64,000 nucleotides of DNA, from the NCBI GenBank assembly GCA_028533045.1, contig JAQQAP010000008.1, forward strand, positions 1-64,000, read 5' to 3'. The translations under genes and the position numbers were made by a program. The notes below the pieces were generated by a model. That model was not told where the DNA came from. It was given only the letters and a program-made list of their open reading frames with translations, and searched no databases. The stretch comes from Spirochaetales bacterium. GTDB lineage: Bacteria; Spirochaetota; Spirochaetia; DSM-2461. Shown piece by piece: positions 50,837 to 58,120 of the stretch; position 1 is the stretch's first letter; each line of letters starts with the position of its first letter.

Positions 50837-53495
<2,659 letters not shown>

Positions 53496-53650: not shown

Positions 53651-54424
53651 TTACTTTGCTATAAAAAACAGTCTTTTGAAGGGGTAGAGAACTTTATTGT
53701 TCCCCCGGGCGGGATAGTCCCGTTTTATTCCCTCCAATATCTCCCTTTCGTAATCCCCTCTCTCCTTTTCGTGGTCCAGTTGGGCCAGGAAGGGTTTGAG
53801 GGCGGTGCTTTTCATCATCTCAAGAATCGCTTCGTGTGATTCCATAACATGAATATAGCTGGTTACCCACATTTCCACATGCTCGAAGAGCCCGGAAAGG
53901 ATATCGTAGTATTCCTCCCGGCTATGGGTTGGGTAGTGTTCGTTTTGCGGGCTAAAACCCCAACGGGATTGAAGCCCGACTTCCACGATAATCCGGCTCA
54001 TGGGCATCTCGCGAAAGAGAGGAATCTGGGCTGCCATGATTCCTCCCGGCTTTAGATTTGCCTTGAGCTTATGGAACAGTTCCGACTGCCGTGGAATCCA
54101 CTGGTAAGCGGCATTGGAAAAAATAAGATCCCATGTTCCCGGGAACTGGGCGGTGGAAGCGTCGGCGGTTATCCAATCCGCTTCTATTCCGCTCTCCCGG
54201 GCCCGCTCTATCATGGCGGGGGAGCTGTCCAGGCCGGTAATCCGGCTTTTCGGCCAGCGACCGGCCAGAACGGCGGTACTGTTCCCCGGACCGCACCCTA
54301 TATCAATGATGCGTTCCGGAGTATTCAGCTCGATCCGTGAGACCAGATCGATGACCGGCTGGGTTCTCTCTCTACCGTACTTCATGTAGAGAGAGGGATT
54401 CCAATCAGTATTTGGCGTCCGCAT
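53651..54424 (-). CDS. tam: Trans-aconitate methyltransferase family protein
   Basis: 257 residues. IIDIGCGPGNSTAVLAGRWP is motif I, WDLIFSNAAYQWIP and LKPGGIMAAQIP are Tam-type motifs, and the N-terminus WNPSLYMKYGRERTQP is diagnostic of Tam. Tam esterifies trans-aconitate, an inhibitor of aconitase-fold enzymes; a yeast counterpart also methylates 3-isopropylmalate. It overlaps leuD by 20 bases and lies inside the leu operon, next to the IPM isomerase genes. Confidence 0.88.
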   Translation of the reverse strand: MRTPNTDWNPSLYMKYGRERTQPVIDLVSRIELNTPERIIDIGCGPGNSTAVLAGRWPKSRITGLDSSPAMIERARESGIEADWITADASTAQFPGTWDLIFSNAAYQWIPRQSELFHKLKANLKPGGIMAAQIPLFREMPMSRIIVEVGLQSRWGFSPQNEHYPTHSREEYYDILSGLFEHVEMWVTSYIHVMESHEAILEMMKSTALKPFLAQLDHEKERGDYEREILEGIKRDYPARGNNKVLYPFKRLFFIAK

Positions 54425-54941
54425 ATTCCAGCCATCCGCCGGCTTTTACCAGGTCCTTGTCGTAGGAACTCAGGTCAAAGCTGTAGGTTTTTTCACCCTT
54501 GTCGCTTTTGATGGTTACCGTCTGGGCTTCCACATCTACGGCGGCTGTCACGCCAGTTGTCTCGGGGCCGGAGGAGAGGGCGAAGATCTCATTCACTTCC
54601 TCTTCCTTCAGCTCGATGGCCATACAGCCGTTGTTGTACATGTTCCCCCGGAAAATACGGGCGAAGTTGGGGGCGATGACTACGGTGTAACCGTTCTCTT
54701 CCAGGGCCCAGGGAGCGTGCTCACGGCTGGATCCGCAGCCGAAGTTCTCCCGGGAGACAACTACGGTGGAGTCCTGCATGGGCTGGCTCATGTGGGTAAA
54801 ACCGTCCATTTTGAGGTCTTCCAGAAGGTGGGGACCCATGGCGGCCCGCTCTACCTCGGTGAGGTACTTGGCGGGGATGATCTCATCGGTGTTGATGTCG
54901 CTTCTATCCAGAAAAAGGATCTGTCCTCCAAAACTCTTCAT
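54405..54941 (-). CDS. leuD: 3-isopropylmalate dehydratase small subunit
   Basis: 178 residues. RSDINTDEIIPAKYL and GCGSSREHAPWAL are the conserved swivelling-domain motifs of LeuD/aconitase. With LeuC it isomerises 2- to 3-isopropylmalate and also citramalate to 3-methylmalate. It overlaps leuC by one base. Confidence 0.95.
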   Translation of the reverse strand: MKSFGGQILFLDRSDINTDEIIPAKYLTEVERAAMGPHLLEDLKMDGFTHMSQPMQDSTVVVSRENFGCGSSREHAPWALEENGYTVVIAPNFARIFRGNMYNNGCMAIELKEEEVNEIFALSSGPETTGVTAAVDVEAQTVTIKSDKGEKTYSFDLSSYDKDLVKAGGWLEYADAKY

Positions 54942-56224
54942 TACATGTACCTCCTGGGGTCGGCAAGTTTGCCTTCGATGGCCGATGCGGCGGCGGTGGC
55001 GGGGCTGCAGAGGTGAACCATTCCGCCCTTACCCATTCGGCCGTTAAAGTTACGGTTGGTGGTGGCTGCGGCGGCTTCTCCTTCGGCCAATACACCGTTG
55101 GACATGCCCAAACAGGCACCGCAGGTGGGGTTGGTCAGACAGGCGCCGGCTTCCATAAAGGTTTTGATGTAACCCGCTTCCAGAGCGTCGGAGTAAATCT
55201 TGGGGGTGGCGGGAGAGACGATCATTCGCACGGTGTCGGCAATCTTCTTTCCTTCCAGGATTTTGGCGGCAATAGCCAAGTCTTCCAGACGTCCGTTGGT
55301 ACAGGAACCAAGGTAAATCTGCTGGAGCGGCTTGCCTTCCATTTCGTTGATATCCTTAACCACGTCCGGTCGGTACTCGTCGGTAACCTGGGGAACCAGG
55401 TCGGAGATGTCGATGGTTCTTTCTTCGGCGTAAACCGCATCGTCGTCGGACTTCCACTTGCTAAAATCAGCCAGAGCTTCTTCCTTGCTTGCGTAGTCGC
55501 CGGCGATAAAGGGCCAGAGGTACTCTACTGTGGTCATATCGGGCATACAAACACCGCTTGTAGCGCCCATTTCGACGGCCATGTTACAGAGAGTCATTCT
55601 GTCGTCCATGGGAAGGTTATCCACAAATTCGCCTCGGAATTCGGCTACCCGGTTGGTTACTCCGTTGGTTGTCATCATCTTTATGACCGCGAGGATGACG
55701 TCCTTGGGGTATACTCCCTTGGCAGGCTTTCCGGTAATGGTGATTTTGGTGCTGGCCGGTGACTTGAAGGCGCAGATCCCCTTGAGGATTCCCACTTCCA
55801 GGTCGGTGGTTCCTACACCGGCTGCGAAGGCCCCGAAGGCTCCGTGGGTACAGGTATGGGAGTCGCCCATGATAATGGTAAAACCGGGGCGTACAAAACC
55901 TTTTTCCGGAAAGATCGCATGGCAAACGCCGTTTCGGCCGATATCGAAATAGTCTTTTATTCCGTTCTCGTTGGCCCAGTCCCGAAGGATTTTTCCCTGG
56001 GTGGCTGTGAGTGAGTCCTTGGCGGGTGTTACGTGGTCGATAACCGCCTTGATCTTGGTGGGGTCGAATACTTTATTCTTGCCCCGTCTTTTCAGGTCCA
56101 GAATGGCCGGGGGAGTGGTTACCTCGTGGCAAAACACCCGATCCAGATTCAGAACGTGAACACCCTCGCAGGGGTTGTCCACCAGATGGGATTCGAAAAT
56201 CTTCTCAACTAATGTTTTTCCCAT
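54941..56224 (-). CDS. leuC: 3-isopropylmalate dehydratase large subunit
   Basis: 427 residues, the short LeuC class. The [4Fe-4S] ligands are in LGSCTNGR and PTCGACLG; GDSHTCTHGAFGAFAAGVGT is the substrate loop. The last codon of leuA and the first of leuC share one base, so translation is coupled. Confidence 0.96.
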   Translation of the reverse strand: MGKTLVEKIFESHLVDNPCEGVHVLNLDRVFCHEVTTPPAILDLKRRGKNKVFDPTKIKAVIDHVTPAKDSLTATQGKILRDWANENGIKDYFDIGRNGVCHAIFPEKGFVRPGFTIIMGDSHTCTHGAFGAFAAGVGTTDLEVGILKGICAFKSPASTKITITGKPAKGVYPKDVILAVIKMMTTNGVTNRVAEFRGEFVDNLPMDDRMTLCNMAVEMGATSGVCMPDMTTVEYLWPFIAGDYASKEEALADFSKWKSDDDAVYAEERTIDISDLVPQVTDEYRPDVVKDINEMEGKPLQQIYLGSCTNGRLEDLAIAAKILEGKKIADTVRMIVSPATPKIYSDALEAGYIKTFMEAGACLTNPTCGACLGMSNGVLAEGEAAAATTNRNFNGRMGKGGMVHLCSPATAAASAIEGKLADPRRYM

Positions 56225-57765
56225 TACGCTCTATTCTCCTTTATTTTCTCAATGCCCTCCATACGGGCAACCTTATTGATTACGTTTAAATAGGCCAAGG
56301 CAGAGGCTTCCACTATGTCCGTGCTGGAGCCGGAGCCGTGGTAGCGCCGTTCCTTATGCTCGGCGATAATTTTTACTTCACCCAGGGCGTTGCGGCCCCC
56401 GGTCATACCGGTGAGGTTGTAGTCTACCATTTTTACGGAGTATCCTACCACACGGTCTATGGCTTTACAGGCGGCGTCTACCGGCCCGTCTCCGGTGGCG
56501 GCTTCCTGAATCTCTTTTTCTTCCTCGTTGGCGTCAATAATCTTTATCGTAGCTGTGGGTACCGATCCGGTTCCGGAGGTGGTGTTGAGGAAGGTCATTT
56601 TAAATCGGTCCGAATCCTCCCCGTCAATCTCCATCATCGCTTCCAAATCGTCATCGTAAACGGTTCCCTTCTTGTCGGCCAGGGCGAGGAACTTTACGTA
56701 GAAAGCGTCCAGGTCGTAGCTGTTCTCTTCGTAGCCGAGCAGGCTCAAGCGGTGCTTGATGATGTGACGGCCGGAGCGGCTGGTCAGGTGGAACTGGTTG
56801 GCCGAGAGTCCTACCGATTCGGGAGTCATGATTTCGTAGTTGTTCCGGCTTTTGAGAACCCCGTCCTGGTGGATACCGGAGGAGTGGGCAAAAGCGGTGG
56901 CCCCAACGATGGCCTTGTTGGGCTGAACCGGGGTGTTACAGATCTTGCTGATGAGCCGGCTGGCGGGAACAATCTCTTCGGTGATGATGTTGGTCTCCAC
57001 CCCAAAGATATCTTTACGGGTGTTCATCGCCATAACCACCTCTTCCATGGCACAGTTCCCGGCCCGTTCGCCCAAGCCGTTAACGGTACATTCAATCTGA
57101 CGGGCTCCGTTCAGAACGGCCATGAGGGAGTTGGCCGAAGCCTGGCCCAGGTCGTTGTGACAGTGGACGGAAATAGTAGCCTGGTCAATGTTGGGTACCC
57201 GGTTAAAAACATCTTTGATAATGTCGCCGAACTCGTATCCCACGGTGTAACCCACCGTATCGGGGATGTTGATGGTTTTGGCGCCCGCCTTAATGGCCTC
57301 TTCCACAACCCGGCAGAGCATATCCCGGTCGGTTCGCCCTGCGTCCTCGCAGGAGAACTCCACGTCGTCCACAAAGTTTCTAGCGTATTTTACCGCGTCT
57401 ACCGCCATGTTAACCACTTCGTCGTAGCCTTTGCGAAGCTTGCTTTCCACATGGACGTTGGAGGTGGCGATGAAGGTGTGAATACGGGGGCGGGGGCAAT
57501 CCTTAAGGGCCTCCGCACAGGCGTCGATATCCGCTTTGACGGCCCGGGCCAAACCGGCGATAATCGGTCCTTCCACGTTGTTGGCGATCTGCCGGACGCT
57601 CTCCAGGTCTCCCGGGGAACTAACGGGGAATCCGGCCTCGATGATGTCGATTTTCAATTTGGCCAGGGTATGGGCTATGACTAACTTTTCCTTTACCGAA
57701 AGGCTGGAGGAGAGGGCCTGTTCGCCGTCTCGCAATGTGGTATCAAAAATCAGTACTTTATCCAT
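56224..57765 (-). CDS. leuA: 2-isopropylmalate synthase
   Basis: 513 residues, full length with regulatory domain. [18 protein letters not shown] is the HMGL-like start, [14 protein letters not shown] the metal site and the C-terminal LeuA dimer domain (~390-513) the leucine-feedback site. It condenses acetyl-CoA with 2-ketoisovalerate. AAGGAG precedes the ATG. It is the first structural gene after the attenuator. Confidence 0.96.
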
Positions 57766-57851: not shown

Positions 57852-57881
57852 AAAAAAAGCCCGTTCTCCAGGAGAACGGGC
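57852..57881 (-). terminator. leu operon attenuator (terminator)
   Basis: On the minus strand GCCCGTTCTCC pairs exactly with GGAGAACGGGC across a one-base centre (the loop will open to about five), followed by seven T. It lies about 85 bases before leuA, inside the leader transcript. Its 5' arm (57881-57871) is also complementary to GGAGAACGG at 57921-57913 in the leader-peptide gene. Confidence 0.9.
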
Positions 57882-57903
57882 CGTTTAGCCGTTTTAACGC
57901 TTT

Positions 57904-57993
57904 TTACAGCGACCGTTCTCCGCAGATTTCTTTCCCTAGTAGTAGAATAAATAGAGTAATAATCGTAATGGCGAAGTTCGGTGTGTTGTTCAT
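57904..57993 (-). CDS. leuL: leu operon leader peptide
   Basis: A 29-codon ORF starting MNNTPNFAITIITLFILLLG and ending CGERSL. It has five Leu codons, three of them consecutive CTA (residues 17-19), and five Ile codons (9, 11, 12, 16, 23). A ribosome stalled at the CTA run would leave GGAGAACGG (codons 25-27) free to pair with the terminator arm; one that reaches the stop would cover it. This is the classic layout of ribosome-mediated attenuation. The rest of 57766-58120 holds only the attenuator, promoter and start sites. Confidence 0.85.
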   Translation of the reverse strand: MNNTPNFAITIITLFILLLGKEICGERSL

Positions 57994-58001
57994 ATGAGAC
58001 C

Positions 58002-58030
58002 AAGCTAAGCCTTTAATTAAAAAAGGTCAA
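58002..58030 (-). promoter_or_regulatory. Possible leu operon promoter
   Basis: TTGACC (58030-58025), 17-base spacer, weak TAGCTT (58007-58002). Predicted start lies about two bases before the leuL ATG, so the leader peptide would be almost leaderless. Confidence 0.4.
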
Positions 58031-58120
58031 GCGAATTTGCCCCGGGGTAGATGAAAAAAGATCATAGTAGTACTATCATGGTATCAGATGACTAATTTAG
58101 GCTGAATCAGGAGGCGGATT

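Follow-up and report, generated by a model that had tools for sequence, protein, structure and literature searches.

A putative leucine/isoleucine leader-peptide attenuator upstream of the leuA operon and related leaders in the class Spirochaetia

Does a ribosome translating a short leader peptide decide whether the leucine genes of this Spirochaetales bacterium are transcribed and, if it does, which amino acids would it sense? The question arises from an element on the minus strand of the window (the whole 64,000-nucleotide stretch of DNA analysed here), which lies between a divergent phzF-like gene and a leuA-leuC-leuD-methyltransferase-leuB-cimA operon (Table 1). The operon genes were identified with NCBIfam, whose matches confirm leuA, leuC, leuD, leuB and cimA as named in an earlier sequence-only reading of the same DNA. 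The methyltransferase gene is conserved at the same place in a congener (G002, 76% identity); by analogy with yeast Tmt1, its product might methylate isopropylmalate. Very probably, the element controls the leuACD-(methyltransferase)-leuB-cimA operon by ribosome-mediated transcription attenuation: a leader ORF, its codon bias, competing RNA pairings that co-vary across genera and the gene context all point to this mechanism.

Table 1. Coordinates of the predicted attenuator and of the operon downstream of it
Feature	Position	Strand	Basis and remarks
Probable leader promoter	58002..58030	minus	TTGACC 58030-58025, 17-nt spacer, TAGCTT 58007-58002; inferred
Leader ORF	57993-57904	minus	29 codons and stop, encodes MNNTPNFAITIITLFILLLGKEICGERSL*; read from the sequence
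Possible segment 1 (protector strand)	57971..57982	minus	pairs with GCGGAGAACGG; MFE folds of the full leader, window and both congeners; tentative
Control codons	57937..57969	minus	ATT 57969-57967, 57963-57958, 57948-57946; CTA 57954-57952, 57945-57937
Segment 2, antiterminator 5' strand GGAGAACGGTCGCTGT	57906..57921	minus	fold and modelled stall/stop states; overlaps last codons and stop of leader ORF
Segment 3, antiterminator 3' strand ACGGCCCGTTCTCC	57871..57884	minus	fold of freed region; overlaps terminator 5' arm
Intrinsic terminator	57852..57882	minus	GC-rich hairpin, then T7; conserved in both congeners
leuA, 2-isopropylmalate synthase, first regulated gene	56224..57765	minus	TIGR00973, 731 bits (cut-off 599)
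leuC-type 3-isopropylmalate dehydratase large subunit	54941..56224	minus	NF001614, 551 bits (cut-off 385)
leuD, 3-isopropylmalate dehydratase small subunit	54405..54941	minus	TIGR00171, above cut-off
Methyltransferase, trans-aconitate-methyltransferase type	53651..54424	minus	NF002463, 234 bits, below cut-off of 297
leuB, 3-isopropylmalate dehydrogenase	52413..53492	minus	TIGR00169, 527 bits (cut-off 353)
cimA, citramalate synthase (isoleucine precursor route)	50837..52420	minus	TIGR00977, 685 bits (cut-off 450)

The leader ORF, noted from the start for three consecutive CTA and five Ile codons, is indeed present on the minus strand and reads ATG AAC AAC ACA CCG AAC TTC GCC ATT ACG ATT ATT ACT CTA TTT ATT CTA CTA CTA GGG AAA GAA ATC TGC GGA GAA CGG TCG CTG TAA. 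Five Leu codons and five Ile codons stand among the 28 that follow the start, in a conserved frame, and leucine is encoded by CTA four times (three in succession) and by CTG once. CTA makes up 4/5 of the Leu codons of the leader as against 8/390 (2%) in ten genes of the 64-kb window. The same bias appears across 21 leaders: CTA accounts for 31% of their Leu codons, and the long ORFs at those loci have 3.5% (P = 1e-21). Such a codon choice has a precedent: the leu attenuator of S. typhimurium carries three CUA codons, and their replacement by CUG lowered its sensitivity (PMC1183508).

An intrinsic terminator separates this ORF from the first structural gene. The sequence-only reading had described a perfect 11-base stem followed by seven T; the T-run stands, the stem is shorter, because the centre of an 11-base inverted repeat leaves only 1 nt, and the hairpin comprises a basal G-U pair and 10 Watson-Crick pairs around a 3-nt loop. 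A 9-base complementarity between the leader and the 5' arm had also been claimed. It exists, GGAGAACGG in the final leader codons (57921-57913) being perfectly complementary to the arm CCGTTCTCC (57879-57871), though its length was understated: when freed, the segment folds into a 14-bp antiterminator (GGAGAACGG..GCUGU with ACGGC-CCGUUCUCC; -22.5 kcal/mol, z = -3.5). The 3' arm of the terminator also reads GGAGAACGG, so that the leader copy, the 5' arm and the 3' arm are in a three-way competition, the arrangement that attenuation requires. The leader might instead act mainly on leuA translation or on mRNA stability, as some Actinobacteria have leuA leaders without terminators for which a different mechanism was proposed (PMC1262725). 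Here, however, a canonical T7 terminator precedes the leuA start codon by 86 nt, the leuA Shine-Dalgarno sequence (AAGGAG, 57778-57773) lies outside the switching helices, and we regard an action other than on termination as improbable.

The two states of the predicted attenuator were modelled in 20 leaders with an assumed 13-nt ribosome leading edge, a value in line with what is generally known of ribosome footprints. When the last CTA occupies the A site, the RNA of the window leader would be free from UCUGCGGAGAACGG onward, and the antiterminator takes up all 10 arm bases at -23.6 kcal/mol; once the ribosome is at the stop codon, the competing structure is worth only -4.8 kcal/mol as against -17.0 kcal/mol for the terminator. 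This contrast is also found in the other 19 leaders, L155 being the weakest. A stall at the control codons is thus predicted to free the antiterminator strand and a ribosome at the stop codon to mask it, which bears out the stall and masked positions initially proposed. At equilibrium, the window terminator arm is found in the terminator with P = 1.00 when the ribosome is at the stop codon and 0.46 when it stalls at the last CTA. In both congeners equilibrium folding prefers the terminator even when the ribosome is stalled, and the model therefore relies on the antiterminator forming first; this would be as expected for a kinetic switch, folding energies alone being no proof. A further hairpin, between an early leader segment and the antiterminator strand, may resemble the classical 1:2 protector. 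We keep this likeness tentative because a ribosome positioned over the CTA run would occupy the hairpin loop and cover neither strand.

We infer translation of the ORF, its start site, stalling, termination and a response to leucine and isoleucine, which would be connected as follows. Transcription would begin on the leader ATG or a few bases upstream, and a ribosome would translate the 29-codon leader closely behind the RNA polymerase. When charged Leu-tRNA (above all the CUA-reading isoacceptor) or Ile-tRNA is scarce, the ribosome would stall in the ATT/CTA run; GGAGAACGGUCGCUGU would then be exposed and pair with ACGGCCCGUUCUCC, blocking the terminator, and transcription would proceed into leuA and onward. 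When both Leu-tRNA and Ile-tRNA are plentiful, the ribosome would reach the stop codon and cover GGAGAACGGUCGCUGU, so that the terminator forms and transcription ends.

Is the arrangement conserved or could it be fortuitous? Aligning related leuA upstream regions, as the sequence-only reading had suggested, reveals that the ORF and its Leu/Ile run persist together with both the terminator and the antiterminator pairing. The two closest leuA relatives share 86-87% identity and belong to records titled Spirochaetaceae and Spirochaetales. Both available congeners retain all of these elements, with the leader peptides MKGKSVISSITISLIILLGRDMCGERSL in G001 and MKNKSVINSIIISLILLLGRDLCRERSL in G002. 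Comparison with G001 and G002 shows that the sole indel within the leader ORF is one codon (3 nt, in-frame) and that the spacer between the stop codon and the terminator varies in length irrespective of frame. The antiterminator strand remains complementary to the 5' arm in the congeners, G002 losing one end pair through changes on both sides; the 3' arm of the terminator tolerates G-U pairs, and changes to G-U occur there only.

The arrangement also recurs at a larger scale. A search for LeuA covered 98 relatives and 297 genomes of the class; the upstream DNA was retrieved and 122 leuA loci were scanned for a terminator, a short ORF with at least 5/7 Ile/Leu/Val and an antiterminator. The scanner matched 41/122 loci in the sense orientation and 5/122 in antisense, an eight-fold excess, and with no other residue group in the same scan did the matches exceed 6 in sense or 9 in antisense. 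Two doubtful matches (L138 and L152) were dropped, and the 39 leaders kept span 12 families. The device is widespread in the class and not universal, since a leader is detected at 20 loci where leuA heads an operon and none is detected at 19 others. An earlier scan, extended to named leuA loci of other phyla, gave mostly chance matches there. Among records of Deltaproteobacteria and uncultured proteobacteria, three loci (L029 1940-2021, L035 22-142 and L048 4747-4828) have similar LLPELLLSLALTGAHA-type leaders before leuA, with a GC hairpin and a T-run.

A further examination of the pairing comes from co-variation, in line with the search for compensatory changes proposed at the outset. In 19 representatives, duplex energies of the leader 3' region with its own terminator arm and with the arms of others were compared over 20,000 permutations. 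The own-arm energies sum to -360.3, the permuted mean being -269.0 (sd 13.5), and 0/20,000 permutations were as good; individually, L062, L087, L089, L095, L136 and L172 are non-significant. The antiterminator pairing hence co-varies across genera, and the mutually exclusive antiterminator and terminator are conserved by this co-variation. Within a single genus, L120 and L121 illustrate how both strands change together (GTGGAAGGAT/GTCCTTCCAC versus GTGGGAGGAT/GTCTTCCCAC). That a small ORF and a terminator were simply juxtaposed by chance, as small ORFs and hairpins are common and the antisense controls match at 5/122 loci, has a negligible probability in our view: it is contradicted by conservation in the congeners and opposed by the sense excess and the co-variation across genera. 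From the CTA excess in the leader, conservation in two congeners and the class-wide recurrence, the arrangement is more than chance on sequence grounds.

A strong intrinsic terminator in a 5' region could nevertheless be constitutive, or be controlled by a T-box, a riboswitch or an antitermination protein, the ORF being incidental. Many bacteria control their leu and ilv genes by T-boxes or proteins. Against such control, no Rfam riboswitch, leader family or T-box scores above the gathering threshold in the window or in 19 related loci, and the ORF frame, its rare CTA codons and the antiterminator are conserved together with the terminator; there is little to recommend it over leader-peptide attenuation.

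If the leader is an attenuator, does it sense leucine only or both amino acids? In genus representatives the leuA leader runs contain 69 Ile, 84 Leu and 6 Val, and the leader of an ilvB gene (L182) has a run of Val codons. A generic hydrophobic ORF was considered and rejected, Val being rare in the runs and CTA strongly over-represented. Most leaders precede a leuA with an adjacent cimA and have both Leu and Ile in the run, although cimA linkage is not visible in three genomes of the operon class (G109, G112 and G284; contig breaks or no cimA match). The f9 case examined (G091, its ilvD and leu genes named from the sequence by eye) has a leader with both residues before a leuA accompanied by leuC, leuB, an ilvD-like gene and ilvB. 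In contrast, the leaders of solitary leuA genes (L087, L103 and L172), together with L102 (in G013, classed as solitary and ending near a contig edge), have Leu runs with 0-1 Ile (4/4). In L172, LLNLLLTLLSGLLS is the run that precedes the antiterminator and IEII stands at the tail; with L172 scored on this tail, and with solitary cases as few as four, the comparison of Ile in solitary and operon leaders gives Fisher P = 0.005 and Mann-Whitney P = 0.08. The mixed Leu/Ile peptide of the sequence-only reading fits this near-absence of Ile before solitary leuA, and it is likely that both Leu and Ile are sensed. The same attenuator could still respond to leucine only, the Ile codons acting as hydrophobic filler: the rare CTA run is the last control site of the window leader and the nearest to the antiterminator, and the Ile codons are the common ATT/ATC. 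Yet the runs contain almost as much Ile as Leu and hardly any Val, and Ile occurs when the operon includes cimA or ilv genes and hardly at all in front of solitary leuA, making leucine-only sensing rather unlikely.

How translation of the leader would begin is suggested by the promoter region. The transcription start is predicted to lie within a few nucleotides of the leader ATG: a TTGAyy-N17-TAnCkT sequence is aligned in both congeners, the -10 hexamer of the window (TAGCTT) being weak with a 3/6 match. The window leader has no clear Shine-Dalgarno sequence, and none is seen in most non-f9 leaders, 22/28 of which have a TTGACA-like hexamer (at least 5/6) 35-39 nt before the ATG. This combination would imply a leaderless start, and the peptide is probably translated from a transcript that begins at or near its ATG. 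The f9 leaders differ, with an AGGAGG-type Shine-Dalgarno sequence and a TTGACA-like hexamer 60-75 nt before the ATG; at f9 loci (L089, L134, L146, L151, L155 and others) the antiterminator strand CCACGG is located just past the leader stop, outside the ORF. The f1/g2 leaders also carry AGGAG. Leaderless attenuator peptides are known from C. glutamicum ilvBNC (PMC11857589), S. lividans (PMC8079986) and S. meliloti trpL (PMC7298713). Between the phzF-like gene and the leader promoter, there is a palindrome-like sequence (AGTACTAT..TAGTACT, window 58055-58080 region), a possible operator that both congeners, G001 and G002, have as well.

The predicted mechanism is classical ribosome-mediated attenuation. 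Like enterobacterial leuL (Salmonella and E. coli), the element combines a short Leu-rich ORF, rare CUA codons and an exclusive antiterminator/terminator pair before leuA. There are also a number of differences: (i), there is no Rfam match, Ile codons are mixed in and cimA is part of the operon; (ii), the final codons of the ORF contain the antiterminator strand and the leader probably has no Shine-Dalgarno sequence. In the C. glutamicum ilvBNC attenuator, the transcription start and the leader start codon are a single nucleotide apart (PMC11857589); our element has, like it, a branched-chain amino acid (BCAA) leader peptide and would probably also be leaderless, whereas operon, peptide and phylum differ, with leuA and Leu/Ile codons here. 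A Leu-codon leader upstream of leuA is also transcribed leaderless in S. lividans (PMC8079986), and the actinobacterial LEU element (leuL) is a pseudoknot that pairs with the leuA Shine-Dalgarno sequence and lacks a typical terminator (PMC1262725, PMC8079986). The Leu-codon leader before leuA is common to both, but in its terminator/antiterminator pair and in a leuA Shine-Dalgarno sequence outside the switching helices our element departs from that type. In spirochaetes, a candidate regulatory RNA precedes a BCAA gene, the Leptospira ilvB (WRC-14-1) motif (PMC8632094); by its description, it is set apart by its occurrence only before Leptospira ilvB and by its discussion with riboswitch-type ligand candidates.

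A 2010 survey considered leader-peptide systems to be known only in Proteobacteria and Actinobacteria and itself added Firmicutes (PMC2965389). The sequence-only reading knew of no described case in the phylum, and the literature searched, with a coverage too incomplete to claim priority, likewise yielded no description of leader-peptide attenuation in Spirochaetes; the mechanism is known and apparently undescribed in the class Spirochaetia. We lean towards BCAA leader attenuation being an old and widespread control of leu, cimA and ilv genes in Spirochaetia, mostly leaderless with a fixed promoter-to-ATG distance, with control codons matched to the genes of the operon (Leu alone, both Leu and Ile, or Val as well) and a preference for rare CTA as in enterobacteria. 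That 12 families of another phylum share this architecture bears on whether attenuators have an ancient or a repeated origin, a question to which the rare-codon choice shared with Salmonella and the apparently leaderless starts shared with Corynebacterium also belong. The attenuator would provide a predicted regulator of leucine and isoleucine synthesis for a group in which none was found described, and the Leu-only and Leu/Ile leaders offer a natural test of whether control codons follow operon content.

The ilvB operons of some genomes are also preceded by leaders. In L209 (G000:C5:82000-86500, minus) and L210 (G001), a conserved ORF with a Shine-Dalgarno sequence lies upstream of ilvN-ilvB; it begins with ATGACCGGAAAGTCATGG and ends in ...LLVVIS*, and the hairpins that come after it are weaker and have no strong T-run. 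This ORF may be a second BCAA attenuator, possibly a translational one.
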